64,000 nucleotides of DNA from Mesonia phycicola (GTDB taxonomy: Bacteria > Bacteroidota > Bacteroidia > Flavobacteriales > Flavobacteriaceae), in the NCBI RefSeq assembly GCF_900141885.1, contig NZ_FQYY01000007.1, forward strand, positions 62,001 through 126,000, written 5' to 3'. How positions within the stretch are numbered: the first letter of the stretch is position 1; every line of letters begins with the position of its first letter. The notes beneath the pieces were generated by a model. It made no database searches and was not told where the DNA came from. It saw only the letters and a program-made list of their open reading frames with translations. Positions 12,728-33,523 of the stretch are shown piece after piece. Both the position numbers and the translations under genes were made by a program.

Positions 12728-12759
12728 TTTGTAAATTAAACTAACAATCGTTAGTTTTG
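12728..12759 (+). promoter_or_regulatory. paaE promoter with TetR operator (site 1)
   Basis: The palindrome AAACTAAC-AATC-GTTAGTTT (12738-12757) is perfect over 8-bp arms. A -33 TTTG (12728-12731) and a -7 box TAGTTTTG (12752-12759, matching TAnnTTTG) are 20 bases apart, and the right arm of the palindrome forms part of the -7 box. A bound repressor would block the promoter. The paaE start codon is at 12781. Confidence 0.8.
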
Positions 12760-12780
12760 TTAGGTAACAAATAAATATTA

Positions 12781-13854
12781 ATGGCAAAATTTCACACATT
12801 AACTGTAAAAGAGGTTTATAAAGAAACAAAAGATTGTACAGTTATAGAATTTGATGTTCCGGAGAATTTAAAAGAAGATTTTAAATATGAACAAGGGCAG
12901 CATTTAACTTTAAAAAAAGATATAAATGGTGAGGATGTAAGAAGATCTTATTCTTTATGCTCTAGCCCTATAGAAAATAAATGGAAGGTTGCGGTAAAGC
13001 AAATACCAACCGGTAAGTTTTCTTCATTTGTGAATGAAGAATTAAAGAGTGGAGACCAACTAGAAGTGATGGTGCCTAGTGGTAAATTTGGAGTGAAAAA
13101 CGAAGCAAATTTACCTAAAAATTATATCGTTTTCGCAGCAGGAAGTGGTATAACGCCAATTCTTTCTATGATTAAGACCCATTTAGCAAAAGAGCCAGAA
13201 AGTACTTTTAAGTTATTTTATCTTAATAAAAACGCTAAATCTATCATCTTTAAAGAAGAGTTAGAGCAATTAAGAAATAAATATTTTGGGCGTTTTGAAA
13301 TTTTCTATTTCTTAACGAGAGAGCAAAGAGATATTCCTTTATTTAATGGAAGATTTGATGAAGAAAAAATAAATCTACTTACCAAAAGTTTGATTGATGT
13401 AGAGCAGATAGATGAGTGTTTTATCTGCGGACCAGAAAAAATGATTTTTATGTTGAGAGATGAGCTAGAAAAAGCAGGACTTTCTCGAAATAAAATTCAT
13501 TATGAATTATTTGTTACCGGTATTTCTGAAGAAGATAAAAAGAAAGCCGCTAAAATTATAGAAAACAAAGTAGAAGGTACACAAGTTACCATTGTAGATG
13601 GTGGTAAAGAGTTTCATTTTGGTATGACAGAAGAGTACGATAATATTTTAGATGCTGCTTTAGGTGCAGGTGCAGATTTACCATTTGCTTGCAAAGGTGG
13701 AGTTTGTAGTACTTGTAAATGTCAAGTGATAGAGGGTAGCGTAGAAATGAAAATAAATTATGCTTTAGAAGATGATGAGGTAACTAATAATTTTGTATTG
13801 AGTTGCCAATCTGTACCAACTTCAGAAAAGCTGGTAGTAGATTTTGATGTTTAA
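12781..13854 (+). CDS. paaE: Phenylacetyl-CoA epoxidase reductase subunit PaaE
   Basis: Passes electrons from NADPH to the PaaABC di-iron oxygenase. The 357 residues show a flavin-binding domain (RRSYS at 54-58), a pyridine-nucleotide domain (GSGITP at 121-126; CGPEKMI later) and a C-terminal plant-type ferredoxin domain whose four cluster ligands are visible as C304, C309, C312 (CKGGVCSTC) and C342. It is the first gene after operator site 1, ahead of paaABCD, whereas in E. coli paaE comes after paaABCD. The order does not affect the assigned role. Confidence 0.95.
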   Translation: MAKFHTLTVKEVYKETKDCTVIEFDVPENLKEDFKYEQGQHLTLKKDINGEDVRRSYSLCSSPIENKWKVAVKQIPTGKFSSFVNEELKSGDQLEVMVPSGKFGVKNEANLPKNYIVFAAGSGITPILSMIKTHLAKEPESTFKLFYLNKNAKSIIFKEELEQLRNKYFGRFEIFYFLTREQRDIPLFNGRFDEEKINLLTKSLIDVEQIDECFICGPEKMIFMLRDELEKAGLSRNKIHYELFVTGISEEDKKKAAKIIENKVEGTQVTIVDGGKEFHFGMTEEYDNILDAALGAGADLPFACKGGVCSTCKCQVIEGSVEMKINYALEDDEVTNNFVLSCQSVPTSEKLVVDFDV

Positions 13855-13931
13855 TAAAGAGCGTTAAAATTTTCATTATCAATTAAATAATGATTAATTT
13901 TTAAGTGTTCTTTTAATTAAAAAAATGAATT

Positions 13932-14888
13932 ATGAGTGAGAAAGAAGTAAAAAATTTAGAAGAAATCTTTGAGCAAAAAATTGCTAGAGATGAAAAAATA
14001 GAACCTAAAGATTGGATGCCTGAGAAGTATAGAAAAACGCATATTAGGCAAATGTCTCAACACGCGCATTCAGAAATTGTAGGGATGTTGCCAGAAGGTA
14101 ACTGGATAACTCGCGCCCCTTCTTTAAGAAGAAAAGTAGCATTGTTAGCAAAAGTACAAGATGAGGCTGGGCACGGTCTTTATTTGTATAGTGCTTGTGA
14201 AACTTTAGGCGTTTCTAGAGAAGAATTGTACGATCAGTTACACTCAGGGAAAGCAAAATACTCTAGTATTTTTAATTACCCAACCATTACTTGGGCAGAT
14301 ATTGGAGCTATTGGTTGGTTAGTAGATGGTGCGGCAATTATTAACCAAGTTCCGCTTTGTAGCACTTCTTACGGGCCCTATGCAAGAGCTATGGTACGAG
14401 TTTGTAAAGAAGAAAGTTTCCATCAGCGTCAAGGGTATGAGATTATGCTAACGCTTTGTCGTGGTACAGAAGAGCAAAAACAAATGGCGCAAGATGCATT
14501 AAACCGTTGGTGGTGGCCAGCGTTAATGATGCTTGGGCCAACAGATGATGCTTCTGTACACACTGCACAATCTATGAAATGGAAATTAAAACGTAAAACT
14601 AACGATGAATTACGTCAGCAATTTATAGATCAAACCATTCCGCAAGCAGATATTTTAGGAATCACTGTTCCAGATCCAGACTTAAAATGGAACGAAGAAA
14701 CTGGTCATTACGATTTTGGAGAAATTAACTGGGATGAGTTTTGGCAAGTAGTAAAAGGCCAAGGTCCTTGTAATAAAGAACGTTTAGAAACTAGAGTGAA
14801 CGCTTGGGAAGGTGGCGCTTGGGTAAGAGATGCAGCAATGGCTTATGCAGAAAAACAAGCCGCTAAAAAAGTTCAGAAAGCAAGCTAG
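13932..14888 (+). CDS. paaA: Phenylacetyl-CoA epoxidase catalytic subunit PaaA
   Basis: The di-iron subunit that inserts oxygen into the ring of phenylacetyl-CoA to give the 1,2-epoxide. The 318-residue sequence has both ferritin-type ExxH iron motifs, EAGH (in [15 protein letters not shown]) and ESFH (in [14 protein letters not shown]), and the [11 protein letters not shown] block of the family. Length is normal. It follows paaE by 77 bases and is separated from paaB by a 236-base gap holding repeats and a hairpin, which is long for genes of one complex. Confidence 0.97.
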
Positions 14889-14978
14889 ATAAAAGAATTT
14901 GAATTCGAAAATGAAGCTCACCCTAAGCTGAGTCAAAGGGTCTTCATTCAATTTGAAATATTATAAATAACAATTCGA

Positions 14979-15010
14979 ATCGTCGTGCTGAATTTGATGC
15001 AGCATCTCAC
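14979..15010. repeat. Palindromic intergenic repeat (GCTGAA type)
   Basis: CGTCGTGCTGAA...GCAGCATCTCAC, a mutated copy of the repeat at 10301 with TGCTG/CAGCA arms. About 60 bases upstream, from 14920, the stretch CACCCTAAGCTGAGTCAAAGGGT looks like a second, decayed palindrome of a CACCCT...AGGGT type. Confidence 0.65.
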
Positions 15011-15063
15011 GCGATTGGGATTTTAAGAAGTTTTTTTAAACTGAAAAATAACAGAAAATAAAA

Positions 15064-15112
15064 TTAGTGAGTATAGCAAGTTGGAGTTACTCATCTCTAA
15101 ATACTCACTATT
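15064..15112 (+). other. Hairpin in the paaA-paaB gap
   Basis: TAGTGAGTAT / ATACTCACTA, a perfect 10-bp inverted repeat with a 27-base loop, ending 15 bases before the paaB start. There is no T-run, so it may be an mRNA processing or stability structure between paaA and paaB. Confidence 0.45.
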
Positions 15113-15124
15113 AATTACAATATA

Positions 15125-15418
15125 ATGGCAGACAAGAAAAAAAATTGGCCTCTTTGGGAAGTATTTGTAAGAAGTAAAAACGGACTAGAACATCGTCATT
15201 TTGGTAGCTTACACGCAGCAGATGAAGATATGGCACTAGAAAATGCACGAGATGTGTATACTAGAAGAAAAGAGGGAGTGAGCATTTGGGTGGTAGAGTC
15301 TAAACATATAAAAGCTTCTAATCCAGATGAAAACGGAGAGATGTTTGAGCCTGCAGAAGATAAAGTTTATCGTCATCCTACTTTTTACGATTTACCAGAC
15401 GAGGTAAAACATATGTAA
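15125..15418 (+). CDS. paaB: Phenylacetyl-CoA epoxidase subunit PaaB
   Basis: Small bridging subunit of the PaaABCE complex that holds PaaA-PaaC heterodimers together; it has no catalytic site. The 97-residue sequence matches the family closely: WPLWEVFVRSKNGLEHRHFG at the start, then HAADEDMALENARDVYTRR and EGVSIWVV. Length is normal. It lies between paaA and paaC on the same strand, so the complex genes keep the usual A-B-C-D order. Confidence 0.95.
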   Translation: MADKKKNWPLWEVFVRSKNGLEHRHFGSLHAADEDMALENARDVYTRRKEGVSIWVVESKHIKASNPDENGEMFEPAEDKVYRHPTFYDLPDEVKHM

Positions 15419-15498
15419 TTCATTTCTGCGGAAGTGGAAATATTAGTTAGAAACCGAGCTATAAAAAAAATACGGCTCGATAATTTCAATTTCATACA

Positions 15499-16254
15499 AT
15501 GAATAAAGAAAATTTAATAAAATATATATTAGGTATTGCAGACAACTCTTTGATTTTAGGTCAACGTTTAGGAGAGTTAACTGGTCACGGACCTAGTCTA
15601 GAAGTAGATATTGCACTTACCAATATTTCTTTAGATTTATTTGGTCAAGTTCGTAGTTACTTTCAATACGCAGCACAAATTTCAGAAGAAGAGAAAACAG
15701 AAGATGATTTTGCTTTTTTACGTACAGAAAGAGAATATGTAAACGTATTGTTGGTAGAGCAAACCAATAAAGATTTTGCATACGTAATAGGACGCCAATT
15801 TTTGTTTGATCATTTTCATTTTTTATTGCTGAATGAATTACAAAAGAGTAAAGATGAAACCTTAGTAGCAATAGCTAAAAAGAGTTTAAAAGAAGTAAGT
15901 TACCACAAGCGTTTTTCTTCAGATTGGGTAAAGCGTCTTGGTGATGGTACAGAAGAAAGTAAGCAAAAAATGCAAACTGCTATAAATGATTTATGGAGGT
16001 TTACAGAAGAATTGTTTGAAACTACAGAAGCAGATCAAGAAGCAATTGAAGCAGGTATTGGGGTAAATGTAACTGCGTTGAAAGATACTTATTTAGCTAA
16101 TGTTTCAGAAGTTTTAACAGAAGCTACGCTAGAAAAACCAGAACTTCAGTTTTTTCAAAGCGGAGGTAAAAAAGGAATACACTCAGAGCAAATGGGCTAT
16201 TTGTTAAGTGATATGCAATTTATGCAACGTACCTACCCAGGTATGAAGTGGTAA
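15499..16254 (+). CDS. paaC: Phenylacetyl-CoA epoxidase structural subunit PaaC
   Basis: Ferritin-fold partner of PaaA that has lost the iron site and supports the active subunit. The 251 residues show the family landmarks ADNSLILGQRLGELTGHGP, the EVSYHKRFSSDWV segment and the C-terminal GKKGIHSEQMGYLLSDMQF block. Length is normal. It starts 80 bases after paaB; the short gap contains only a weak inverted repeat and no promoter I can recognise. Confidence 0.95.
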   Translation: MNKENLIKYILGIADNSLILGQRLGELTGHGPSLEVDIALTNISLDLFGQVRSYFQYAAQISEEEKTEDDFAFLRTEREYVNVLLVEQTNKDFAYVIGRQFLFDHFHFLLLNELQKSKDETLVAIAKKSLKEVSYHKRFSSDWVKRLGDGTEESKQKMQTAINDLWRFTEELFETTEADQEAIEAGIGVNVTALKDTYLANVSEVLTEATLEKPELQFFQSGGKKGIHSEQMGYLLSDMQFMQRTYPGMKW

Positions 16255-16317
16255 ATTTTATTTAGGTAGCAATCCTAATATTATTAAGCTTATTGAAGTA
16301 TAAATATTTAGTTAGAA

Positions 16318-16346
16318 CGTCACGCTGAACTCGTTTCAGCATCTCA
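16318..16346. repeat. Palindromic intergenic repeat (GCTGAA type)
   Basis: CGTCAC followed by GCTGAA / TTCAGC (6-bp perfect stem, five-base loop) and ATCTCAT. It lies in the paaC-paaD gap and has the same flanks as the copy at 10301. Confidence 0.75.
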
Positions 16347-16364
16347 TCAGTGTAAAGACATAAA

Positions 16365-16865
16365 ATGACAGAAGAAAAAGTACATATTTCAGAAGAATTA
16401 GAACCGATTTTAAAACAAATTTCGGATCCAGAAATTCCTGTACTTTCTATTCTAGATCTAGGTGTTGTTCGTTCAGCAGAAATTATCGATAATGTTGCTC
16501 AAATTAAAATAACTCCAACTTATAGCGGTTGTCCCGCAATGGATGTTATAGGAGATGATATTGAGCAAGCTTTAAAAGAAGCAGGTTATGCCTCTAAAGT
16601 AAATTTAATTTTATCGCCAGCCTGGTCTACCGAGTGGATTACAGAAGAAGGTAAAAATGCTTTACGAGAATATGGTATAGCTCCACCTATGGATGCTACT
16701 TCAGATAAAAAAGCATTATTAGGAGAAGAAAAAATTGTAAAGTGCACAAATTGTGGGTCTACCAATACCCATTTAGTAAGTCAGTTTGGTTCTACGGCTT
16801 GCAAAGCATTATTTAAGTGTAATGACTGCCAAGAACCGTTTGATTATTTTAAATGTTTAATATAA
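16365..16865 (+). CDS. paaD: Phenylacetate degradation Fe-S maturation factor PaaD
   Basis: PaaD is required for an active epoxidase, most likely by helping Fe-S or di-iron assembly. The 166-residue protein has an N-terminal SufT/MIP18-type domain (about 5-95, with SDPEIPVLSILDLGVVR and the TPTYSGCPAMDVI cysteine motif) and a C-terminal four-cysteine module (CTNCGS...CNDCQEPFDYFK) with SQFGSTACK between the cysteine pairs. All expected cysteines are present. A GC-rich hairpin with a T-run follows the stop codon directly. Confidence 0.95.
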   Translation: MTEEKVHISEELEPILKQISDPEIPVLSILDLGVVRSAEIIDNVAQIKITPTYSGCPAMDVIGDDIEQALKEAGYASKVNLILSPAWSTEWITEEGKNALREYGIAPPMDATSDKKALLGEEKIVKCTNCGSTNTHLVSQFGSTACKALFKCNDCQEPFDYFKCLI

Positions 16866-16892
16866 TTCCTGCCTTGGCGGGAATCTTTTTTT
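16865..16892 (+). terminator. Terminator-like hairpin between paaD and paaG
   Basis: ATTCCTGCC / GGCGGGAAT (one G-T pair, very tight loop) followed by CTTTTTTT. It begins at the last base of the paaD stop codon and ends 9 bases before the paaG start. As it lies inside an apparent operon it may attenuate rather than end transcription, or it may be another mobile palindrome. Confidence 0.5.
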
Positions 16893-16901
16893 ATAAAAAA
16901 A

Positions 16902-17684
16902 ATGAGTAAATCGATAGCTGTAGAAATTATTAATAATGTAGCAAAAATTAGTCTTAACCGACCAGAGGTTTTTAATAGCTTTAATCGAGAAATGGCATTT
17001 GCATTACAAGACCAATTAAAAGAGTGTGCATCTAATAAAGAAGTACGTGCTATTTTGTTAACTGGTAATGGCAAAGCATTTTGTGCAGGACAAGACTTAA
17101 AAGAAGTTACAGATCCAGAATTAAACCCAGGCTTCAAATCTATATTAGAAGAGCATTATAATCCTATAATTCAACTTATAAGAAGTATAGAAAAACCAAT
17201 TGTTGCAGCAGTAAATGGTGTAGCAGCAGGTGCAGGAGCAAATATTGCTTTAGCTTGTGATGTAGTGGTAGCAACACAAAACGCTGCATTTATACAGGCG
17301 TTTAGTAAAATTGGTTTAGTACCAGATAGCGCAGGTACTTTCTTTTTACCAAGATTAATTGGTTTTCAAAAAGCATCTGCTTTAGCTATGCTGGGAGACA
17401 AAATTTCAGCGGAAGAAGCAGAGCGTTTAGGGATGATTTACAAATATTTCACTACAGAAGAGTTTGAAGAAGAAAGCATGAAACTTGCAGAAAAACTTGC
17501 TAAAATGCCAACCAAAGCATTAGCATTAACTAAGGCTGCGCTTAATAAATCATTAACTAATAATCTAGAAGAGCAATTAAATTTAGAATCTCAATACCAA
17601 ATAGAAGCCGCTTCTACAGCAGATTATAAAGAAGGTGTAAATGCTTTTATAGAAAAAAGAAAACCAAATTTTAAAGGAGAGTAA
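16902..17684 (+). CDS. paaG: Epoxyphenylacetyl-CoA isomerase PaaG
   Basis: Converts ring-1,2-epoxyphenylacetyl-CoA to oxepin-CoA and can move double bonds later in the pathway. This is a 260-residue crotonase-fold protein. Motifs shared with known PaaG include GKAFCAGQDL (oxyanion hole), NGVAAGAGANIALACD (second oxyanion hole) and AFSKIGLVPDSAGT, where the Asp replaces a hydratase Glu. These favour PaaG over a hydratase. It lies 36 bases after paaD and before paaH. Confidence 0.9.
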   Translation: MSKSIAVEIINNVAKISLNRPEVFNSFNREMAFALQDQLKECASNKEVRAILLTGNGKAFCAGQDLKEVTDPELNPGFKSILEEHYNPIIQLIRSIEKPIVAAVNGVAAGAGANIALACDVVVATQNAAFIQAFSKIGLVPDSAGTFFLPRLIGFQKASALAMLGDKISAEEAERLGMIYKYFTTEEFEEESMKLAEKLAKMPTKALALTKAALNKSLTNNLEEQLNLESQYQIEAASTADYKEGVNAFIEKRKPNFKGE

Positions 17685-17698
17685 CTAATAAGATTTTT

Positions 17699-17773
17699 GT
17701 CACCCTAAACTTGATTCAAGGTAGCATCAATAAAATATGATGATGAGATGCAGAATAAAGTTCAGCATGACGA
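17699..17773. repeat. Pair of decayed palindromic repeats between paaG and paaH
   Basis: First a degenerate CACCCT...TTCAAGG unit (about 17700-17722), then an inverted and mutated copy of the GCTGAA-type repeat, readable on the minus strand as TCGTCATGCTGAACTT then ATTCTGCATCTCAT (about 17742-17773). The mismatched stem shows this copy is no longer a clean palindrome. Confidence 0.55.
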
Positions 17774-17836
17774 TTTTTAAACCAAAAAACACAGTTTCAA
17801 TTTTTTAGTTGAATTTGAAAAAAAATTAAGATCAAT

Positions 17837-19006
17837 ATGACCATCGGAATTATAGGTAGCGGAACAATGGGTAGCGGTATTGCACAAGTGGCAGCAACTG
17901 CTGGTTGTCAAGTAAAAGTTTATGATACCAATCAAGAAGCCTTGCAAAAAAGTGAAGCGAAATTAGAACAAGTAATGCTTCGCTTAATTGAAAAAGGTAA
18001 AATTGATACTACAGAAAAAGACAGAATTCAATCTAATATTTCTTACGTAAATACGATACAAGAATTAGCAGGTGCCAATCTAACTATAGAAGCCATTATT
18101 GAAAATCTAGAAATAAAACAAAAGGTTTTTCAAGAGTTAGAAGCTTGCCAAAATGAAGATGCCATTATAGCTTCTAACACCAGTTCTTTATCTATAGCTT
18201 CTATTGCTTCAGCATTAAAAAAACCAAGCCGAGTAATTGGTATTCATTTTTTTAATCCAGCACCATTAATGCCATTGGTAGAAATTATACCAGCGGTACA
18301 AACTTCAGAAGAAGTAAAAAATAAAGTAGTTCAAATTATAGCCGATTGGAAAAAAGTAGGGGTTCTTGCAAAAGATACTCCTGGTTTTATTGTTAACCGT
18401 GTTGCTAGACCGTTTTATGGAGAAGCGCTTAGAATTTATGAAGAAGGTAAAGCCGATATTTCTACTATAGACAATGCTTTAAAAGATTTAGGTGGTTTTA
18501 GAATGGGGCCTTTTCAGTTAATGGATTTTATTGGTCACGATGTAAATTATACCGTTACAGAAACTGTTTTTAAAGAGTTCTATTACGACCCGCGTTACAA
18601 ACCATCTTTCACACAAAAACGTCTAAAAGAAGCAGGTTATTTAGGACGCAAAACAGGAAAAGGTTTTTACGATTATAAAGACGGAAAGCCTGTCGCTTCA
18701 AGCGAAGTCGAGAAATTTAGTAATTCAGAGCTTTCTCAACAAATTCTAGATCGTGTTTTAGTAATGCTTATTAATGAGGCAGCAGATGCTTTATTTTTAA
18801 ACATTGCTACCGCAAAAGATATAGATTTAGCAATGACCAAAGGAGTTAATTACCCTAAAGGTTTACTTGCTTGGGCAAATGAAAAAGGAATTGATTGGTG
18901 TGTAGAAAAATTAGACGCACTTTACAACGAGTATCACGAAGATCGTTACCGTTGCAGTCCTTTATTACGTAAAATGAAACTAGAAAAAAACCAATTTCAA
19001 TTATGA
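17837..19006 (+). CDS. paaH: 3-hydroxyadipyl-CoA dehydrogenase PaaH
   Basis: Oxidises 3-hydroxyadipyl-CoA to 3-oxoadipyl-CoA with NAD. The 389-residue protein has an N-terminal Rossmann domain (IGSGTMGSGIAQVAA at the start), the catalytic His in IGIHFFNPAPLMPLVEI, the DTPGFIVNRVARPFYGEA hinge, and two C-terminal 3HCDH dimerisation modules, the second ending near CSPLLRKM. Its stop codon overlaps the paaI start (ATGA), so the two are translationally coupled. Confidence 0.93.
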   Translation: MTIGIIGSGTMGSGIAQVAATAGCQVKVYDTNQEALQKSEAKLEQVMLRLIEKGKIDTTEKDRIQSNISYVNTIQELAGANLTIEAIIENLEIKQKVFQELEACQNEDAIIASNTSSLSIASIASALKKPSRVIGIHFFNPAPLMPLVEIIPAVQTSEEVKNKVVQIIADWKKVGVLAKDTPGFIVNRVARPFYGEALRIYEEGKADISTIDNALKDLGGFRMGPFQLMDFIGHDVNYTVTETVFKEFYYDPRYKPSFTQKRLKEAGYLGRKTGKGFYDYKDGKPVASSEVEKFSNSELSQQILDRVLVMLINEAADALFLNIATAKDIDLAMTKGVNYPKGLLAWANEKGIDWCVEKLDALYNEYHEDRYRCSPLLRKMKLEKNQFQL

Positions 19007-19410
19007 TAAAAGGAACTGAAATTCCCCAAAAAATGCTCGAGCTAGATGGCTTTAGTCAATGGTTAGGCATAGAGTTGGTAGAAGTAAAAGAAGGTTATTG
19101 CAAAGTACAAATGACTATTCGTAAAGAAATGCTCAACAGTATGGGCAAGGCGCACGGCGGCATTACATTTTCTTTAGCAGACACCGCATTTGGCTTTGCT
19201 TCTAATACTCACGGCAGAAAAGCCGTTTCCATAGACTGTAGTATAAATCACATAGAAGCCTTAAACGAAGGTGATGTAATTACCGCAGAGTCAGAAGTAA
19301 AAACACTCAAAAACAAAGTCGGTTTTTATTTAGTAGAAGTAAAAAAAGGCGAAGAGTTGGTAGCCTTATTTAAAGGCGTGGTTTATAGAACAAGCGCTGT
19401 GTGGGAGTAG
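19003..19410 (+). CDS. paaI: Hydroxyphenylacetyl-CoA thioesterase PaaI
   Basis: Hotdog-fold thioesterase that frees CoA from dead-end hydroxyphenylacetyl-CoA esters. The 135 residues include the family block MGKAHGGITFSLADTAFGFA, with the HGG turn and the Asp that acts in catalysis, and then SIDCSINHIEAL. Length is normal. The ATG overlaps the paaH stop by four bases. A structured intergenic element follows the gene. Confidence 0.9.
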   Translation: MIKGTEIPQKMLELDGFSQWLGIELVEVKEGYCKVQMTIRKEMLNSMGKAHGGITFSLADTAFGFASNTHGRKAVSIDCSINHIEALNEGDVITAESEVKTLKNKVGFYLVEVKKGEELVALFKGVVYRTSAVWE

Positions 19411-25447: not shown

Positions 25448-25470
25448 AAACTTCTCAAATACTACTCTCT

Positions 25471-26067
25471 ATGATCTATTCTTTTAAAGGCCATATTCCT
25501 GTGGTTCATGAAACGAGTTTTGTACATCCTTTTGCAGCAGTAACTGGTAATGTTATTATTGGTAAAAACTGTTATATAGGTCCGGGTGCAGCTATACGTG
25601 GAGATTGGGGTGAAATTATTTTACAAGATGGTGTTAATGTACAAGAAAATTGTACGGTACATATGTTTCCTGGCAAAAGTATAGTACTTAAAAAGGGAGC
25701 ACACGTTGGTCACGGAGCAATTATACACGGTGCTAATCTAGGTGAAAATTGCTTGATTGGGATGAATTCTGTAATTATGGATGATGCCGAAATTGGTGAC
25801 GAATGTATTGTTGGAGCAATGGCATTTGTAAGAGCAGAAACTAAAATAGAAAGAAGAAGTTTAGTAGTAGGTAATCCCGCTAAAGTAATAAAGCAAGTTT
25901 CTGATGAGATGATAGCTTGGAAAACTGCAGGAACAAAACTATATCAACGCTTACCAAAAGATTGTCACGAAAGTTTACAAGAGGTAGAACCGTTACGAGA
26001 AATACCAAAAAATAGACCTACGCAAGAAGATTTTTATAAAACCTTACGAGAGTTTCAGAAAGAATAA
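25471..26067 (+). CDS. paaY: PaaY, left-handed beta-helix thioesterase
   Basis: A 198-residue gamma-carbonic-anhydrase-like protein; PaaY of other bacteria is a thioesterase that removes stalled ring-hydroxylated CoA esters. The hexapeptide repeat region (about 10-145) is clear, with GNVIIGKNCYIGPGAAIRGD, VGHGAIIHGANLGENCLIGM and VGAMAFVRAE; the metal-binding His residues are at HMF, HVGHG and HG. The C-terminal part (KTAGTKLYQRLPKDC) matches PaaY. It is the last gene before a terminator and operator site 3. Confidence 0.88.
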   Translation: MIYSFKGHIPVVHETSFVHPFAAVTGNVIIGKNCYIGPGAAIRGDWGEIILQDGVNVQENCTVHMFPGKSIVLKKGAHVGHGAIIHGANLGENCLIGMNSVIMDDAEIGDECIVGAMAFVRAETKIERRSLVVGNPAKVIKQVSDEMIAWKTAGTKLYQRLPKDCHESLQEVEPLREIPKNRPTQEDFYKTLREFQKE

Positions 26068-26111: not shown

Positions 26112-26151
26112 GTGCTTATAAAATTCTATACTTGTTAAAAAACAAGCTTTA

Positions 26152-26190
26152 AAATGAGAGTTTATTGATTTTAACTCTCATTTTTTATTA
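26152..26190 (+). terminator. Intrinsic terminator before the paaK unit
   Basis: AAATGAGAGTT / AACTCTCATTT stem, 10-base loop, then six T. It isolates the paaJ-paaY unit from the paaK promoter. Confidence 0.8.
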
Positions 26191-26212: not shown

Positions 26213-26241
26213 TTTGACTAACAAACGTTAGTTAATGTTTG
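26213..26241 (+). promoter_or_regulatory. paaK promoter region with TetR operator (site 3)
   Basis: ACTAAC-AAAC-GTTAGT (26217-26232), a perfect 6-bp-arm palindrome. A TTTG (26213-26216) lies directly before it and a TAATGTTTG (26233-26241, one base longer than TAnnTTTG) directly after it. The promoter is less canonical than at sites 1 and 2. Confidence 0.7.
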
Positions 26242-26262: not shown

Positions 26263-27597
26263 ATGTTTAATAAAGAAATAGAAACACTGCCTATACCTCA
26301 ACTACGTAAATTACAAAGCGAACGTTTGATAAAACTAGTAGAGAGAGTTTATGCTAAAGTTCCATTTTACAAAAAAGCTTTAGATGAAAAAGGAGTAAAA
26401 CCTTCTGATATTAAATCTATAGAAGATTTACACAAACTTCCTTTCACCAAGAAAACCGATTTAAGAGATCAATATCCATTTGGGTTTTTAACTTTACCCG
26501 AAAACGATTTAGCTAGAATTCATTGTTCTAGCGGTACTACCGGAAAACCAACAGTAGTAGCTTATACACAAAAAGATTTAGATATTTTTTCTGAAGTTGT
26601 AGCAAGATCTTTAGCTGCAGGAGGAGCAACTTCTAAAATGAAATTGCATAACTCTTACGGTTACGGTTTATTTACTGGCGGAATAGGGCTTCATTACGGA
26701 GCAGAAAAACTAGGTATGTCTGTAATTCCTGTTTCTGGCGGAAGAACAGATAGACAAATTCAGCTTCTTAAAGATTTTCAGTCAGAAGTAATTTGCTGCA
26801 CTCCATCTTACGCACAAACCATTGCTTTTGAATTGGAGAAGCAAGGAATACCGCTTTCAGATTTAAATTTAAAATACGCAGTACTTGGTGCAGAACCTTG
26901 GACAGATGCAATTAGAAAAGATATAGAAAAATCTTTGGGAGTAAAAGCTACTAATATTTATGGTTTAAGCGAGGTGATTGGGCCTGGCGTTTCTCAAGAA
27001 GCTTTTGATGAGCAAAATACAGGAAGCTATATTTGGGAAGATCATTTTTTTCCAGAAGTAGTAGATAAAGATACCGGTGAACCTTTACCTTATGGAGAAG
27101 AGGGTGTTTTGGTATTTACCACTCTAACCAAAGAGGCTATGCCAATGTTACGTTATTGGACCAATGATATTTGTAGCATTTATTATGATGAAAGTAAGTC
27201 TAGAACGCATATCAAAATGAGTCAGATTAAAGGACGCGCAGATGATATGTTAATTATTCGCGGTGTAAATCTTTTTCACACACAAGTAGAAGAAGTATTT
27301 AAAGATTGCCCTAAATTAACACCTAACTATCAATTAATTGTTACCAAAGAAGGAGTGACAGATAGAGTAGAAGTAAAAGTAGAAACCTCTTTAGATTTTC
27401 AAAAAGAAATTGCTTTATCTAATGGCTTTACAGATGAAGAAGCTTTAACTCATGAAAGTTTGTTATCTTTAAATCGAGAATTATGTAAAAAAATTAGAGA
27501 CTGTACGGGTTTAGGCATGAAACTAAGTTTAAAAGCTTATGGAGAAATACCTAAAAGTGAAGGAGGTAAACTTCAACGTATTTTAGATCTTAGATAA
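26263..27597 (+). CDS. paaK: Phenylacetate-CoA ligase PaaK
   Basis: Activates phenylacetate with ATP and CoA, the entry step of the pathway. The 444 residues are the usual length and hold the AMP-binding P-loop C88-SSGTTGKP, the YGLSEVIGPGVSQEA block that binds the adenylate, YWTNDIC, and the hinge GRADDMLIIRGVN before the C-terminal lid domain. It is the first gene behind operator site 3 and is followed 13 bases later by the second tetR gene. Confidence 0.96.
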   Translation: MFNKEIETLPIPQLRKLQSERLIKLVERVYAKVPFYKKALDEKGVKPSDIKSIEDLHKLPFTKKTDLRDQYPFGFLTLPENDLARIHCSSGTTGKPTVVAYTQKDLDIFSEVVARSLAAGGATSKMKLHNSYGYGLFTGGIGLHYGAEKLGMSVIPVSGGRTDRQIQLLKDFQSEVICCTPSYAQTIAFELEKQGIPLSDLNLKYAVLGAEPWTDAIRKDIEKSLGVKATNIYGLSEVIGPGVSQEAFDEQNTGSYIWEDHFFPEVVDKDTGEPLPYGEEGVLVFTTLTKEAMPMLRYWTNDICSIYYDESKSRTHIKMSQIKGRADDMLIIRGVNLFHTQVEEVFKDCPKLTPNYQLIVTKEGVTDRVEVKVETSLDFQKEIALSNGFTDEEALTHESLLSLNRELCKKIRDCTGLGMKLSLKAYGEIPKSEGGKLQRILDLR

Positions 27598-27610: not shown

Positions 27611-28210
27611 ATGACCAATACCAAACCAGAAGAACAAACACTTAGTAAAAGAGAATTTATTTTAGAAGAAGCAGCAAAGCTATTTGTGGTAAAAGGTTTT
27701 AAAGCCACTTCTATGAAAGATATAGCTGCAGTAATAGGTGTAGAAGCTGCAAGTTTATATAACCACATAAAAAATAAACAAGAGATTTTAGTGGTGTTGT
27801 TAGGTGGTTTAGCAGATAGCTTTAGTATTGGTATTCACGAAATTGTAATCAAAAAAGCTTCTTCTAGAGACAAACTAGAAGAAGCTATTAGAATGCATAT
27901 TCAAGTTTCTTTAGAAAATAGAAATAAAACCCACCTTATTCTTGAAGATTGGAAACATTTAGAAGAACCAGAGCTTACAAGGTACCTTATGTTAAGAAAA
28001 GAATATCAAGATCTTTTTAAGGGTTTAGTTATAGACGCAATCAACTCTGGAGCAATCAAAAAAGGAAACCCAGAATTAATACTTAATCATATTCTATCTT
28101 CTGTGCGCTCCATTTACAATCAATATTTATATAGCAATACCTCAAAAATATCTGCACAAGAGTATGAAGAAAGTATCATAGATTTTATTTTTCAAGGTAT
28201 TTCAGGTTAA
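27611..28210 (+). CDS. TetR-family regulator 2 of the phenylacetate cluster
   Basis: A 199-residue TetR repressor with its helix-turn-helix in GFKATSMKDIAAVIGVEAAS then LYNHIKNKQEIL (about 30-60). The recognition helix is nearly the same as that of regulator 1 at 12129, so both should read the same operator. It shares an mRNA with paaK behind operator site 3 and so is probably autoregulated. The ligand domain differs more from regulator 1 than the DNA-binding part, which would allow two inducers. Its stop codon abuts the end of the converging Lrp gene. Confidence 0.87.
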   Translation: MTNTKPEEQTLSKREFILEEAAKLFVVKGFKATSMKDIAAVIGVEAASLYNHIKNKQEILVVLLGGLADSFSIGIHEIVIKKASSRDKLEEAIRMHIQVSLENRNKTHLILEDWKHLEEPELTRYLMLRKEYQDLFKGLVIDAINSGAIKKGNPELILNHILSSVRSIYNQYLYSNTSKISAQEYEESIIDFIFQGISG

Positions 28211-28687
28211 TTATTCTAAACTTTCCAAATCTAAGTGATGTGTTTGTTTTCCTTGAGAAAGTGAAATAAGACTTTGCACACTACCCAAATACGGAATTAA
28301 AGTAAGCTTAGTCAATATAAAATTTTCATAAGCTTCAATATCTTTTACTATCAGTTTTAGTAAGTAATCAAAATTACCAGAAACTCGGTGACATTCTACC
28401 ACCTCTGGAAAGCTATTAATTTGATTTACAAATTTTTCTAAATAACTTCTAGTATGTCCTTGTATAGTTATGCCAATAAATACAGTTTGCTTAAAACCTA
28501 AACGTTGTGCATCTAGCAAAGCAGCATATTGTTTAATGTAACCAGCTTTTTCTAATTTCTTTATACGTTCAAAAACGGGAGTGGTAGAGAGGTTTAATTC
28601 TTCGGCTAAACTTTTAGTGGTTCTATTACTATTGTCTTGCAATAACTTAAGAATTTTTAAATCTATTTTATCTAATTTTAATGGCAT
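28211..28687 (-). CDS. Lrp/AsnC-family transcriptional regulator
   Basis: A 158-residue feast/famine regulator: N-terminal winged helix (about 1-60, LDKIDLKILKLLQDNSNRTTK and LSTTPVFERIKKLE) and a RAM ligand domain (about 68-150, with HRVSGNFDYLLKLIV). Such proteins usually sense amino acids. It is divergent from the 2-oxoacid dehydrogenase genes across a 172-base gap, so it most likely controls them, consistent with branched-chain or aromatic amino-acid breakdown. The effector is not deducible from sequence. Confidence 0.9.
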   Translation of the reverse strand: MPLKLDKIDLKILKLLQDNSNRTTKSLAEELNLSTTPVFERIKKLEKAGYIKQYAALLDAQRLGFKQTVFIGITIQGHTRSYLEKFVNQINSFPEVVECHRVSGNFDYLLKLIVKDIEAYENFILTKLTLIPYLGSVQSLISLSQGKQTHHLDLESLE

Positions 28688-28859: not shown

Positions 28860-30170
28860 ATGTCTACTTTAGAAATAAAATTGCCCCGAATGGGAGAAAG
28901 TATTTCAGAAGCCACCATTATTAATTGGTTGGTGAATGAAGGTGATGAGGTTACGCAAGACCAAGTTATTTTAGAAGTAGCTACAGATAAAGTAGATTCT
29001 GAAGTACCTGCACCAGCTTCTGGTAAAATCACCAAACTTATGGTACAAGCCAATGAAGTAGTGCAAGTTGGTCAAGTAATGGCAACTATGGAAGCTTCAG
29101 AAAATCAATCTGCTAGTGTTACAAAACCTGCGGAAGAAAAAGCTTCTTCAAAAGTTGATTCAAAAAAAGAAAAAGTAACTCTTCCGAAGGTAAAAACCTC
29201 TGCGGCACAAAAATCAACTTCAAAAAGTTATACCCTAAACGAAAATCAAAATACCTTTTTTTCACCTTTAGTAGTAAGTATAGCAAAAGAACATCATATT
29301 AGTTTTGAAGAATTAGCAAGAATACCTGCTACAGGAAATGAAGGCCGACTAAGAAAAAGTGATATTTTTAAATACATAGAAGAGGGTCGCCCTGCACAGT
29401 TTGCACAATCAATACCAGAACCTTCTGGCTTTCAAGTACCAGACTTAAAATTAGATAAAGGAAAAGGTAGAATTGTAGAGATGGATCGTATGCGCCAAAT
29501 GATTGCAGATCACATGGTGTACTCCAAACATACTTCTCCGCACGTAACAGCATATGTAGAAGCAGATTTAACAGAAATGGTAAATTGGCGTAATGCTAAC
29601 AAAAATGCTTTTCAAGAAAAATATGGGCAACGATTAACTTTTACCCCGCTTTTTGTAGAAGCAGTAGCCAAGGCGGTAAAAGATTTCCCAATGATTAATG
29701 TTTCTGTTGATGGTAAAAACATCATTGTAAAAGATCAAATTAATATTGGTATGGCAACCGCTTTACCTAGCGGAAATTTAATTGTACCAGTAGTAAAAAA
29801 TGCAGATCAAAAAGATCTTCCAACCATTGCTGCAGAGGTAAATAGTTTGGCAGAAAAAGCAAGAAACAACAAGTTAAAGCACGATGAAACTAGCGGAAGC
29901 TCTTTTACCATATCTAACGTAGGTACGTTTGGTAGCATAATGGGTACGCCTATTATTAATCAGCCAGAAGTAGCTATTCTTGCTACAGGAATTATAAAAA
30001 AACGTGCAGAAGTGATGGAGTATGAAGACGGAGATAAAATTGAAATTAGACAAATGATGTACCTGTCATTATCTTTTGATCATAGAGTTGTAGATGGTTT
30101 TCTAGGCGGAAGCTTTCTTCGTCGCGTAGCAGATTATTTTGAAGATTTTGATATGAATAGGACTTATTGA
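28860..30170 (+). CDS. bkdB: 2-oxoacid dehydrogenase E2, dihydrolipoyl acyltransferase
   Basis: Moves the acyl group from lipoate to CoA in a 2-oxoacid dehydrogenase complex, most like the branched-chain type. The 436 residues have one lipoyl domain (K44 in ATDKVDSEV is the lipoylated Lys), a linker rich in Ala/Lys/Ser, a peripheral E1/E3-binding domain (about 136-178) and the catalytic domain ending in SFDHRVVDGFLGG with the active His and Asp. The stop codon forms the start of an inverted repeat that flanks the inserted four-helix gene. Confidence 0.93.
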   Translation: MSTLEIKLPRMGESISEATIINWLVNEGDEVTQDQVILEVATDKVDSEVPAPASGKITKLMVQANEVVQVGQVMATMEASENQSASVTKPAEEKASSKVDSKKEKVTLPKVKTSAAQKSTSKSYTLNENQNTFFSPLVVSIAKEHHISFEELARIPATGNEGRLRKSDIFKYIEEGRPAQFAQSIPEPSGFQVPDLKLDKGKGRIVEMDRMRQMIADHMVYSKHTSPHVTAYVEADLTEMVNWRNANKNAFQEKYGQRLTFTPLFVEAVAKAVKDFPMINVSVDGKNIIVKDQINIGMATALPSGNLIVPVVKNADQKDLPTIAAEVNSLAEKARNNKLKHDETSGSSFTISNVGTFGSIMGTPIINQPEVAILATGIIKKRAEVMEYEDGDKIEIRQMMYLSLSFDHRVVDGFLGGSFLRRVADYFEDFDMNRTY

Positions 30171-30193
30171 GACAAGATATTTTGAAACAAGAT
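30169..30193. repeat. Left inverted repeat flanking the IVP gene
   Basis: GAGACAAGATATTTTGAAAC followed by AAGAT. It matches the reverse complement of 30596-30620 at 21 of 25 positions by eye. It begins inside the E2 stop codon. Confidence 0.55.
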
Positions 30194-30207
30194 AAATAAG
30201 GTTTTTG

Positions 30208-30573
30208 ATGAGAAGACATAACTTTAAAAAATTGCAAATCTGGATTGAAGCTATGGATTTAATAGATGAAAATTATCTGTTAACTTCAAAATTGCCTGAT
30301 TATGAAAAGTTTGGTTTGCAAACACAAATGAATCGCTCTTCAGTATCAATTGCATCAAATATTTCTGAAGGCTCTAGTAAACGAACAAATAAACATTTTA
30401 TAAAATATTTAGATGACAGTTTAGGTTCAGCATTTGAGTGGGAAACTCAATTAAATGTTTGTTTTCGACAAAATTTTATTTCAGAAGATAATTTTCAAAA
30501 TCTTGAAAAGAAAGTTCAAAAGTTACAAAGTAAAATTTCAAATTTCATCGATTCACTAGATGTGAATAACTAA
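30208..30573 (+). CDS. Four-helix-bundle protein (23S rRNA IVS / S23 family)
   Basis: A 121-residue helical protein of the TIGR02436 / S23 family, related to proteins encoded in 23S rRNA intervening sequences and to Avd of diversity-generating retroelements. The family signature MNRSSVSIASNISEGSSK is intact, as is the opening NFKKLQIWIEAMDLI. ATG at 30208 is preferred over the TTG just before it. No reverse transcriptase or rRNA gene is near. It splits the E2 and E1 genes and lies between imperfect inverted repeats, so it looks like an insertion. Its function is unknown. Confidence 0.88.
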   Translation: MRRHNFKKLQIWIEAMDLIDENYLLTSKLPDYEKFGLQTQMNRSSVSIASNISEGSSKRTNKHFIKYLDDSLGSAFEWETQLNVCFRQNFISEDNFQNLEKKVQKLQSKISNFIDSLDVNN

Positions 30574-30595
30574 TTATTAATTTAGTGCAGTAAGC

Positions 30596-30620
30596 ATCCT
30601 GTTTCAAAAAATCATGTTTC
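30596..30620. repeat. Right inverted repeat flanking the IVP gene
   Basis: ATCCTGTTTCAAAAAATCAT followed by GTTTC, the partner of 30169-30193. The first possible ATG of the E1 gene (30614) lies inside it. Confidence 0.55.
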
Positions 30621-32698
30621 CTGCCTCCAATAAAGATTCAATGATAAACAAAGATATATTTAAAAAGGCTTTTTCTAACCTGTGTAAAGCAAAGGCGTTA
30701 ACAGAATTGTATGAAGATAATTTTAAAACAGTTTCTAAATACGTGCACGCCACTTCTAGAGGTCACGAAGTAATACAAACTGCAGTAGGAATGCAATTGT
30801 TACCGCAAGATTATGCATTTCCGTATTATAGAGACGATTCTATTTTATTAGCAATTGGGATGGAGCCAAAAGATTTAATGTTGCAATTATTGGCTAAAAA
30901 AGACGATCCTTTTTCTGGCGGAAGAAGTTATTATTCTCACCCAAGTTTAAAAGACGAAGATAAACCAAAAATACCGCATCAAAGTTCTGCAACAGGTATG
31001 CAAGCTATTCCTGCAACGGGAGTAGCAATGGGTATGTGGTATAAAGAAAATGAAGATATTAGTCATAATTCAGCCTCCCCAGAAAAGCCAATAGTAGTTT
31101 GTTCTTTAGGAGATGCCTGTGTGACGGAAGGAGAAATTTCTGAAGCCTTTCAAATGGCAGCGTTAAAGCAACTTCCAATTTTATATTTGGTACAAGATAA
31201 TGGTTGGGATATTTCTGCAAATGAAGCAGAAACAAGAGCGCAAAGTGCTTATGAGTATGCTCGTGGTTTTAATGGATTAGAAGCTATTACTATAGATGGT
31301 ACAGATTTTATAGAAAGCTATACTACGCTTAATAAAGCTATTAAAACTATACGCGAAGAACGTAGACCAATTTTAGTACACGCTAAAGTACCTTTATTAA
31401 ATCACCATACTTCTGGAGTAAGAATGGAATGGTACAGAGATGATTTAGAGGAAGCTAGATCTAGAGATCCGTATCCTAAAATGAAACAACAACTTGCAGA
31501 AAACGGATTTACAGAAGACGAAATCGAAGCAATTGAAGTTTTAGCAAGAGTAAAAGTAAAAGAAGATTTTATAGAAGCTCAAAAAGCAGAAAATCCCACA
31601 CCAGCAGATTTATTTACACACGATTTTGCTCCAACACCTGTTACAGAAGAGGTAGGAGAACGTACTCCTGCAAATGCAGAAAAAGTAGTAATGGTAGATT
31701 GTGCATTACATGCTATTGAAGAAATTATGCGTAACGATAAAACCAGCTTGCTCTACGGGCAAGATGTAGGTGGTCGATTAGGAGGTGTTTTTAGAGAAGC
31801 AGCAACTCTAGCGCAAAAATTTGGAGATAACCGAGTATTTAATACACCTATTCAAGAAGCATTTATCGTAGGTTCTACCGTTGGTATGTCTGCGGTTGGC
31901 TTAAAACCAATTGTAGAGGTACAGTTTGCAGATTATATCTGGCCAGGACTTAATCAGTTATTTACAGAAGTAAGTAGAAGCTGTTATTTGAGTAATGGTA
32001 AATGGCCGGTTTCTATGGTGTTACGTGTGCCAATTGGGGCGTACGGTAGTGGTGGTCCTTACCATTCTTCCTCTGTAGAAAGTGTAGTAAGTAATATTCG
32101 CGGACTAAAAATTGCTTATCCAAGTAACGGAGCAGATTTAAAAGGGTTAATGAAAGCAGCTTATTTAGACCCAAATCCTGTAGTAATTTTTGAGCATAAA
32201 GGTTTATATTGGAGTAAAGTTCCTGGTACAAGCGGAGCAACCTCTGTAGAGCCAGCAGAAGACTATGTATTGCCTTTTGGTAAAGCTTGGGTGTTACAAG
32301 AAATCTGGAAGCAAGAAGAAAAAGAAACCATATCTATTGTTACTTATGGTATGGGTGTGCATTGGGCAATGAATGCTTCCGAAGAATTAGGTATGCAAGA
32401 TCAGATTGAAATAATAGATCTTAGAACGCTTGCTCCGCTAGATGAAGCAACGGTAATGAAATCGGTTAAAAAAACAGGAAAATGTTTAGTAGTTACAGAA
32501 GAGCCATCTAACAATACCTTTGCAAGAGCACTTTCAGGAAAGATACAAGAAGAATGCTTTAAGTATTTAGACGCTCCAGTAATGACAATAGGTTCAGAAA
32601 ATATGCCGGCAATTCCGTTAAACTCCACCTTAGAGCAAACGATGATTCCTTCAACAGAAAAAGTAAAAAAGAAGATAGAAGAACTCTTCAGTTATTAA
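30614..32698 (+). CDS. 2-oxoacid dehydrogenase E1, fused alpha and beta subunits
   Basis: Thiamine-diphosphate enzyme that decarboxylates a 2-oxoacid and loads the acyl group on E2. The 694 residues fuse the alpha part (about 10-340; TPP-binding GDACVTEGEISEAF and NGWDIS) with the beta part (about 345-694; YGQDVGGRLGG, IQEAFIVGSTVGMSA, and VPIGAYGSGGPYHSSS). This is the branched-chain (2-oxoisovalerate) type. The ATG at 30614 lies in the inverted repeat; ATG at 30641 (MINKDIFKKAF) is a likely original start. E2 is just upstream; no E3 gene is in the window. Confidence 0.92.
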   Translation: MFPASNKDSMINKDIFKKAFSNLCKAKALTELYEDNFKTVSKYVHATSRGHEVIQTAVGMQLLPQDYAFPYYRDDSILLAIGMEPKDLMLQLLAKKDDPFSGGRSYYSHPSLKDEDKPKIPHQSSATGMQAIPATGVAMGMWYKENEDISHNSASPEKPIVVCSLGDACVTEGEISEAFQMAALKQLPILYLVQDNGWDISANEAETRAQSAYEYARGFNGLEAITIDGTDFIESYTTLNKAIKTIREERRPILVHAKVPLLNHHTSGVRMEWYRDDLEEARSRDPYPKMKQQLAENGFTEDEIEAIEVLARVKVKEDFIEAQKAENPTPADLFTHDFAPTPVTEEVGERTPANAEKVVMVDCALHAIEEIMRNDKTSLLYGQDVGGRLGGVFREAATLAQKFGDNRVFNTPIQEAFIVGSTVGMSAVGLKPIVEVQFADYIWPGLNQLFTEVSRSCYLSNGKWPVSMVLRVPIGAYGSGGPYHSSSVESVVSNIRGLKIAYPSNGADLKGLMKAAYLDPNPVVIFEHKGLYWSKVPGTSGATSVEPAEDYVLPFGKAWVLQEIWKQEEKETISIVTYGMGVHWAMNASEELGMQDQIEIIDLRTLAPLDEATVMKSVKKTGKCLVVTEEPSNNTFARALSGKIQEECFKYLDAPVMTIGSENMPAIPLNSTLEQTMIPSTEKVKKKIEELFSY

Positions 32699-32717
32699 TA
32701 ATATATATAATTCTCAT

Positions 32718-32748
32718 AAAAGCTCTTAAAATTTTTAAGAGCTTTTTG
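32718..32748 (+). terminator. Intrinsic terminator after the E1 gene
   Basis: AAAAGCTCTTAA / TTAAGAGCTTTT stem with a 5-base loop and a short T-run, 20 bases past the E1 stop. Confidence 0.75.
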
Positions 32749-32840
32749 TTTTTCGTTAATCTTCATTAAAATCGTTGTTAAGCTTCGTTAATCTGTTTAG
32801 TTACAATTGCATAAGTTTCTATCTTTAAAATAAAAAAGTT

Positions 32841-33284
32841 ATGAAATTTACAGAAGAAGTATCAAAAAGTTTAAATGAATTACTAGAGAAAAACTATGAC
32901 GCAGAAAAAGGATATAAAGATGCGGCAGAAAGAGTAGAAAACTCTACAATGAAAGATTTTCTCGAGCAACAAGCGCAAGATCGTTATGATTTTGGACATG
33001 AGTTGAAAGATGAAATTAGAAACTTTGGAGAAGAGCCAGATAAAGGAGGAAGTGTAAAAGGAGCACTTCACAGAAGTTGGATGGATTTAAAAGCCGCAGT
33101 ATCTTCAGATAGTAACGAAAAAGTAATGGAAGAAGTGCAACGCGGTGAACAAGCAGCCATTAATGAATACGATGATATCTTAAAAAAAGATTTGCCACCA
33201 ACAACTACAAGCATATTAAATAGGCAAAGAAATAAAATTGCCAAGGCTCAGCAAAGCGCCAAAAATTTTGAAATTATTTCTTAA
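32841..33284 (+). CDS. PA2169-family four-helix-bundle protein (DUF2383)
   Basis: A 147-residue ferritin-like helical protein. The first helix pair (NELLEKNYDAEKGYKDAAE ... LEQQAQDRYDFGHEL) and the second (GEQAAINEYDDILKKDLPP) are typical of the PA2169/DUF2383 family. A few conserved Glu and His residues are present but I cannot say that it binds metal. No signal peptide. It has its own terminator and no clear tie to its neighbours; members of this family are often linked with stress response, which is only a general hint. Confidence 0.8.
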   Translation: MKFTEEVSKSLNELLEKNYDAEKGYKDAAERVENSTMKDFLEQQAQDRYDFGHELKDEIRNFGEEPDKGGSVKGALHRSWMDLKAAVSSDSNEKVMEEVQRGEQAAINEYDDILKKDLPPTTTSILNRQRNKIAKAQQSAKNFEIIS

Positions 33285-33313
33285 TAAAGAAGAACAGACT
33301 AATTTAATTATAG

Positions 33314-33343
33314 GCCGTCAAATACAAATTTGACGGCTTTTTT
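33314..33343 (+). terminator. Intrinsic terminator after the DUF2383 gene
   Basis: GCCGTCAAAT / ATTTGACGGC perfect 10-bp stem, loop ACAA, then six T. Confidence 0.85.
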
Positions 33344-33491
33344 CATGAGTTATTTTGAGCATTAATGGCGGTATATTTTTTCTATTAAAAATATTATATC
33401 AGAATTTATTTACCTCGAAAAATGATTATATAATAAAATTTTTTACAAAAAAATATAGAATTATCACTTTTGTATGTTTCTAAATATTATA

Positions 33492-33523
33492 TTTGATACT
33501 CTAACTAACGTTTGTTAGTAAAT
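33492..33523 (+). promoter_or_regulatory. Promoter region of barrel/MHS transporter with TetR operator (site 4)
   Basis: ACTAAC-GTTT-GTTAGT (33504-33519), a perfect 6-bp-arm palindrome identical in arms to sites 1 and 3. A -33-like TTTG (33492-33495) is 20 bases before a TAGTAAAT (33516-33523) at the -7 position. This site is over 5 kb beyond paaK-tetR2 and links the downstream pair to the phenylacetate regulon. Confidence 0.72.

Follow-up and report, generated by a model that had tools for sequence, protein, structure and literature searches.

A probable PaaR-type TetR regulon with single and overlapping double operators in the phenylacetate gene cluster of Mesonia phycicola

Described repressors of phenylacetate catabolism (paa) genes are the closest counterparts of a palindromic element, ACTAAC-N4-GTTAGT, that stands at promoters of the paa cluster of the marine bacterium Mesonia phycicola, in a 64-kb stretch (hereafter, the window) of its 3.28-Mb genome. 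In Thermus thermophilus HB8, PaaR (TTHA0973) is a TetR-type regulator of paa genes that binds CNAACGNNCGTTNG (half-site CNAAC/GTTNG, 4-bp spacing) and is released by phenylacetyl-coenzyme A (phenylacetyl-CoA) (PMC9493321, PMC4424350). PaaR of Burkholderia cenocepacia is likewise a TetR-type repressor that acts at several paa promoters and is released by phenylacetyl-CoA (PMC9493321, PMC4424350), but its operator, ACCGACCGGTCGGTT, has another sequence and, as read here, a 2-bp spacing. PaaX of Escherichia coli, also a repressor of paa operons relieved by phenylacetyl-CoA, differs in being of the GntR type and in its operator, TGATTC-N27-GAATCA (PMC9493321).

The four Mesonia sites, numbered 1 to 4 for the promoters of paaE, paaJ, paaK, and dcaP (a porin gene), follow the Thermus pattern. 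The CNAAC-N4-GTTNG geometry fits fully at sites 1, 3, and 4, while site 2 departs from it at a single right-arm base, and the fixed bases of CNAACGNNCGTTNG are matched at 9 of 10 positions at sites 1, 3, and 4 and at 7 of 10 at site 2. The consensus obtained for TTHA0973 by restriction endonuclease protection, selection, and amplification (REPSA), AACnAACGTTnGTT, is present exactly in sites 3 and 4. Judged by its sequence, the operator is of an already known kind, with the geometry of Thermus PaaR; the likeness to TTHA0973 is one of operator geometry and published descriptions rather than of protein alignment. The systems differ in that Thermus paaR is the leading gene of an operon that it regulates, whereas Mesonia tetR1, directly upstream of paaE, has no near-exact site of its own, and in that Mesonia has a second TetR and an operator placed within a Bacteroidota-type promoter.

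We infer, with considerable confidence, a PaaR-type TetR repressor regulon, from the observed sites, from where they lie in the promoter, from how they are conserved, and from their joint occurrence with TetR1. In the paaE promoter, a TetR1 dimer would bind the ACTAAC-N4-GTTAGT copy lying between the -33 and -7 elements; in this genome, it would also bind at paaJ, paaK, and dcaP. Once bound, it would keep RNA polymerase off. By analogy with PaaR of Thermus and Burkholderia, phenylacetyl-CoA would release the repressor. The inducer would come from outside phenylacetate through PaaK or perhaps from phenylpyruvate through a neighboring 2-oxoacid dehydrogenase, and the double operators at paaK and dcaP would be part of an optional module for uptake and activation, equipped with a TetR paralogue of its own. 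To our knowledge, few specific regulators have been mapped in Flavobacteriia, for which the motif and promoter layout given here would offer a ready description of a catabolic regulon. PaaR accompanied by PaaY has already been noted in Flavobacteria (PMC13186573), the terms "operator" and "binding site" not being found in the accessible text of that paper, and an open-access literature search found no description of a PaaR operator of Bacteroidota.

Operator copies, promoter context, and distribution

An earlier note on this DNA had reported the palindrome at four promoters, with no further copy in the window, and this was borne out. Sites 1, 3, and 4 are exact (the last two at 26217-26232 and 33504-33519), site 2 has one mismatch, and no other copy with 0 or 1 mismatch occurs in the 64 kb; the sites lie 25, 75, 30, and 41 bases before the starts of paaE, paaJ, paaK, and dcaP, respectively. 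An exact copy turned up, once each, in 2 of 400 simulated 64-kb sequences; the other 398 contained none. At up to 3 mismatches, the window contains 40 matches versus 46.45 expected; the loose motif is not enriched, and therefore only near-exact copies are informative.

The promoter context was taken from loci named in a TetR1-alignment scan of a genome collection, in which the best 80 of at least 541 confirmed stretches were kept. The paaE gene follows tetR1 in 79 of the 80 loci, and each of these 79 has the operator upstream of paaE (78 exact, 1 with one mismatch), a count to be read as a footprint; the sole locus lacking paaE (L176) has no operator site. Records of metagenome-assembled genomes titled Bifidobacterium breve and Rhizobium (L157 and L161) also hold tetR1-paaE loci of flavobacterial type, and their titles are probably wrong. 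When the 79 operators are aligned without gaps, a TTG ends 8 bases upstream of the operator (79, 79, and 78 of 79 loci per base), and the commonest sequence at the right end of the operator is TAGTTTTG, to which the right arm contributes TAGT. The spacing is TTTG-N20-TAnnTTTG, with a complete TTTG in 68 loci, a complete TAnnTTTG in 42, and both in 33. TTTG at -33 is a Bacteroidota promoter element. TAnnTTTG corresponds to the flavobacterial -7 consensus (PMC9723704). Since the operator lies between these two elements, repression by occlusion would be the natural reading. The layout was derived from column conservation; a sigma-70-type promoter scanner was uninformative here (59 found versus 62.0 expected).

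With a promoter matrix trained on the 72 non-Mesonia loci, all four sites of the window outscore every unrelated position. Sites 1 to 4 score 38.6, 14.5, 12.7, and 13.8, respectively, compared with -1.2 for the best unrelated place in the window (the other places above this value being the reverse strands of sites 1, 2, and 4) and at most 5.6 in ten Markov simulations. The individual promoters are less uniform than had been proposed. The claimed TTTG at -33 is present at sites 1, 2, and 4, at 20, 19, and 20 bases before the right-arm TAG, but at site 3 a TTTG directly adjoins the operator, and the closest -7-like box, AATGTTTG (26234-26241), comes after the operator. The -7 box said to overlap the right arm at sites 1, 2, and 4 is a full TAnnTTTG at site 1 only; it is one base off at site 2 and weak at site 4 (TAGTAAAT).

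The earlier note had named frequent copies away from the paa genes as evidence against the regulon, and exact copies of that kind are scarce in this genome. It contains four exact copies, three in the paa cluster and one on contig C25; the latter lies inside a reading frame, has a matrix score of -6.1, and was rejected as a fifth target. The other one-mismatch copies are on C19 (-7.7, inside a reading frame), C22 (below -15.0, inside a reading frame), and C26 (-4.0), of which the C26 copy is intergenic and was set aside by matrix score alone. Allowing up to 2 mismatches gave 173 copies, better ones included, versus 139 for the control. A search of the genome for TTTG plus operator at up to 3 mismatches produced no convincing new target (10 forward and 6 reverse matches; control, 8 and 4): apart from the four sites and two reverse strands, all remaining matches had 3 mismatches.

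An exact-motif search covered 60 genomes, i.e., M. phycicola and 59 relatives (G numbers below), with placement read from the annotation of fetched stretches. The motif occurred in 25 of them, in 35 copies; since the reversed control pattern gave 28, the count alone is unremarkable, and the placement is the striking part. Thirty-one copies were on target (paaE, 22; paaK, 3; dcaP, 2; paaZ, 1; dehydrogenase E2 gene, 1; upstream of the E1 gene, 2), and four were off target (C25 of M. phycicola, C23 of G008, C32 of G014, and one in G021). TetR1 homologues were detected at an E value of 1e-10 or better in 26 of the 60 genomes and were strong (1.2e-28 or better) in 24, the weak matches in G037 and G048 not being counted. 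All 24 genomes with a strong TetR1 have paaA and an exact motif at a paa, dcaP, or dehydrogenase gene, versus none of the 8 genomes having paaA and no strong TetR1 (G059, with a TetR1 fragment below the cutoff, among them). The motif therefore tracks TetR1 and not the pathway; it was found, off target, in 1 of the other 28 genomes. In G025, tetR1 (L082, 17668-18240) and the paa cluster (L089/L090) are on different contigs, and despite the unlinked tetR1 the cluster keeps three exact operators, at paaE, paaZ, and the E2 gene.

These distributions make it highly improbable that the palindrome is, instead of an operator, a hairpin or a general element of promoters or of the nucleoid. The right arm does provide the first bases of the -7 box, and the copies upstream of the E1 gene in G040 (L091, 2881-2896) and G053 (L092, 3220-3235), which are the sole exact copies there, resemble hairpin terminators: they lie in long hairpins followed by T runs, have no TTTG, and score -4.9 and -5.9 with the matrix. 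A general element of this kind is, however, at odds with the single off-target exact copy in the M. phycicola genome, with a presence that follows TetR1 instead of paaA, and with a half-site and spacing identical to those of the measured PaaR operator.

Site 2 is backed by promoter context, as scored by the matrix, and not by conservation: G010, whose TetR1 makes it the nearest relative, has no counterpart upstream of paaJ, and the other Mesonia stretches holding paaJ have none at up to 2 mismatches. With its one mismatch and its 75-base distance from the start codon, it could be a chance near-match, leaving three regulated promoters and paaJ served from elsewhere. We consider this unlikely, because the matrix built from non-Mesonia loci places site 2 above sites 3 and 4 and above unrelated and simulated sequence, and because a terminator stands upstream of it, so that paaJ probably needs its own promoter here.

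Several observations weigh against the proposed TetR1-operator regulon. The loci behind the 79 aligned operators were fetched through TetR1 similarity and include close relatives and many metagenome-assembled genomes, so that they do not amount to 79 independent trials. Upstream of tetR1, no site with 0 or 1 mismatch is present, in contrast to Thermus, where paaR heads one of its regulated operons. Site 2 lacks the G010 counterpart, and the E1-gene sites of G040 and G053 may be terminators instead of operators. Finally, across the 60 genomes, the Thermus REPSA pattern shows no enrichment (17 matches; reversed control, 16); 5 of the 17 are at paaK, dcaP, or paaE.

Two operator classes and two TetR proteins

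The earlier note spoke of one TetR operator, but the operators form two classes. Those of paaE and paaJ are single, and those of paaK and dcaP consist of two overlapping palindromes offset by 4 bp. A second palindrome at up to 2 mismatches was found at 0 of 79 paaE sites versus 7 of 8 Mesonia paaK/dcaP sites. The latter 8 represent 6 related genomes, and the counting began after the offset had been noticed. The double sites are at paaK of the window, G005, G009, and G011 and at dcaP of the window, G003, and G010; at the exception, the paaK site of G003, the second palindrome needs 3 mismatches.

The double class touches on the two differing consensus sequences published for Thermus PaaR, for which it suggests a possible explanation. 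The 14-mer AACnAACGTTnGTT was selected in vitro by REPSA (PMC6651687), a study whose authors interpret their data in terms of a homodimer and mention a minor band, left unexplained, for the shorter palindromic probe. By arithmetic, two CNAAC-N4-GTTNG palindromes shifted by 4 bp against each other overlap in just this 14-mer, and such an overlap could bring the REPSA consensus into line with CNAACGNNCGTTNG. As a marker of the double class, however, the 14-mer fails, since it is also contained in 7 of the 79 single paaE sites (spacer AAAC). It occurs in the paaE site of G027 as well, and a copy on C37 of the M. phycicola genome has a matrix score of 5.0.

TetR1 and the second regulator, TetR2, have 35% identity, and the region around the second helix of their helix-turn-helix (HTH) motifs is near-identical (KAASLYNHI and EAASLYNHI); cross-binding is therefore likely. 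In a tree of 35 proteins (midpoint root, with some long branches), the five TetR2 sequences form one clade beside all 26 TetR1 sequences, with support of 100/99 for each group and 87/74 for their join. A recent duplication of TetR1 as the source of TetR2 was rejected on this basis. The predicted structure of TetR1 (pLDDT, 93.2) has T. thermophilus PfmR (3VPR) as its best PDB match (TM score, 0.89; 25% identity), a likeness by fold, and it also matches AibR, an isovaleryl-CoA-binding TetR. PfmR, which we take to be TTHB023, is also tied to fatty acid genes. TTHB023 is a second Thermus TetR that can act on phenylacetate genes (PMC6651687).

Co-occurrence links the core site with TetR1 and does not place TetR2. 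Two regulons could share one half-site, with TetR1 acting at the single operators (paaE and paaJ) and TetR2, alone or together with TetR1, at the double ones (paaK and dcaP-mfs). We regard such a division as a serious possibility that falls short of probable. It would agree with the split in second palindromes between paaE and paaK/dcaP sites, with the position of tetR2 next to paaK, with the presence of tetR2 in every genus genome in which paaK or dcaP was found, and with a TetR2 clade that is no recent copy of a sampled TetR1. Conversely, the nearly alike HTH regions argue for shared targets, and G053 and G040, in which the only protein matched is TetR1-like, also have shifted palindromes at paaK (2 and 3 mismatches, respectively). 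The small, related sample behind the double class, its recognition before counting, and the paaK site of G003, which is not double at 2 mismatches, count against the division too.

The 2-oxoacid dehydrogenase and a possible paaK-dcaP-tetR2 module

A 2-oxoacid dehydrogenase with a fused E1 lies alongside the paa cluster in the window and, in some relatives, has the operator at its genes (L235, 6657-8735; L089, 5389-5404). Its E1 and/or E2 genes were present in the fetched stretches of 16 of the 22 family genomes with tetR1, either next to the paa genes or, for G010, on the contig that carries the tetR2 fragment; in the remaining 6, the stretch was too short or contained no dehydrogenase. The E2 gene has an exact upstream operator in G025 and one with a single mismatch in G020; at the dehydrogenase genes of the window, none (0 or 1 mismatch) was found. 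Two Saprospira plasmids, out of three with the best TetR matches, were examined as well. Both have the gene order TetR, E1, paaE, paaA, paaB, and in each an operator variant, ACGAACNNNNGTTCGT, occurs exactly twice, before E1 and before paaA. The M. phycicola genome encodes another fused E1, of 32% identity.

The dehydrogenase of the cluster may supply phenylacetyl-CoA and is a candidate for a phenylpyruvate-to-phenylacetyl-CoA step; an open-access literature search found no description of a phenylpyruvate dehydrogenase feeding phenylacetyl-CoA. The label "phenylacetate regulon" given in the earlier note understates this enzyme, in that 12 of 16 genus genomes yielded no full-length paaK and some relatives have an operator at the dehydrogenase. 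Several relatives seem to use the phenylacetate switch without the usual phenylacetate-activating enzyme. Many clusters may work without PaaK, and these would be missed by surveys that start from PaaK, as in PMC13186573.

Full-length paaK (E value of 1e-40 or better) is present in 4 of the 16 genus genomes, as well as in G040 and G053, and tetR2 is present in 6 of the 16, including a contig-end fragment in G010. Because that contig ends inside tetR2, paaK of G010 may have been lost by assembly. In G011, only a short paaK-like frame precedes tetR2 (L085, 6961-7230), perhaps a decayed paaK. A search of 21 genomes found dcaP in 3, each of which also has tetR2. Each of the five Mesonia paaK-tetR2 loci examined has an operator copy (3 exact and 2 one-mismatch; one locus with the short paaK frame), as does dcaP in all three genomes with the gene (2 exact and 1 one-mismatch). 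Together, paaK, dcaP, and tetR2 look like an optional module. With its start 13 bases after paaK, tetR2 probably lies in the unit under site 3 and would be autoregulated through that site. Four repressed units serving one pathway, as first proposed, is consistent with the sites and their placement but too simple for two operator classes and two TetR proteins.

A broader scenario would join these elements. An ancestral regulon in this branch of Bacteroidota might have burned phenylacetyl-CoA derived from phenylpyruvate through a cluster-linked 2-oxoacid dehydrogenase, without paaK, and later gained the paaK, porin, and transporter module with its own TetR and a double operator shared by two dimers; one inducer would then be read through two repressors of differing cooperativity, and the Thermus REPSA consensus may equal a two-dimer overlap. 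We hold this scenario to be rather doubtful, as it is made less likely by the occurrence of the 14-mer in single paaE sites.

Gene order and proposed transcription units of the window

From tetR1, the genes run paaE, A, B, C, D, G, H, and I, a ypfJ-type peptidase gene, paaJ, paaZ, a hydratase-like gene, paaY, paaK, and tetR2 (Table 1). A minus-strand Lrp-type gene follows, and then the dehydrogenase E2 gene, a four-helix-bundle gene, the fused E1 gene, a DUF2383 gene, the DcaP-type porin gene, and a major facilitator superfamily (MFS) transporter gene.

Table 1. Coordinates of the predicted features in the window
Feature	Position	Strand	Evidence or remark
tetR1, PaaR-type TetR gene, directly upstream of paaE	12129..12704	+	ATG at 12129; TetR_N (PF00440) and TetR_C_24 (PF17932)
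paaE promoter, TTTG-N20-TAGTTTTG, operator between both elements	12728..12759	+	sequence; column conservation, 79 loci
Operator 1, single class, upstream of paaE	12740..12755	+	exact; matrix score 38.6
paaE, paaA, paaB (15125-15418), paaC, paaD, paaG, paaH, paaI	12781..19410	+	NCBIfam
Hairpin terminator upstream of paaJ unit	20463..20497	+	fold -16.8 kcal/mol, z -4.61
Operator 2, single class, upstream of paaJ	20562..20577	+	one mismatch; matrix score 14.5
paaJ, paaZ, enoyl-CoA hydratase-like gene, paaY	20653..26067	+	NCBIfam; paaY and hydratase matches under cutoffs
Hairpin terminator upstream of paaK unit	26151..26184	+	fold -12.4 kcal/mol, z -4.23
Operator 3, overlapping double class, upstream of paaK, includes AACAAACGTTAGTT	26217..26236	+	sequence
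paaK, phenylacetate-CoA ligase	26263..27597	+	TIGR02155, 568.2 bits, under curated 646.3
tetR2, second TetR	27611..28210	+	starts 13 bases after paaK
Lrp/AsnC-type regulator gene, divergent from dehydrogenase E2	28211..28687	-	neighbor of E2 in G010 and G024 too
2-oxoacid dehydrogenase: E2 28860-30170, fused E1 30614-32698	28860..32698	+	family matches
Operator 4, overlapping double class, upstream of dcaP, includes AACTAACGTTTGTT	33500..33519	+	sequence
dcaP-type outer-membrane porin and MFS metabolite/H+ symporter	33561..36315	+	PF19577; TIGR00883 under cutoff

The names paaE, paaJ, and paaK stand, that of paaK with a score under the curated cutoff, and the gene first described as a barrel gene encodes a DcaP-type porin, with the MFS transporter next to it. 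The NCBIfam matches of paaG, paaH, and paaI are also under curated cutoffs. Both terminators placed earlier, near 20463 and 26152, fold; a simple terminator scanner, which reported 11 terminator-like sites versus 9.2 expected, listed neither of the two. Among the scanner's sites is a terminator-like hairpin at 16865-16884 (+), between paaD and paaG, a possible point of division or attenuation within the first unit.

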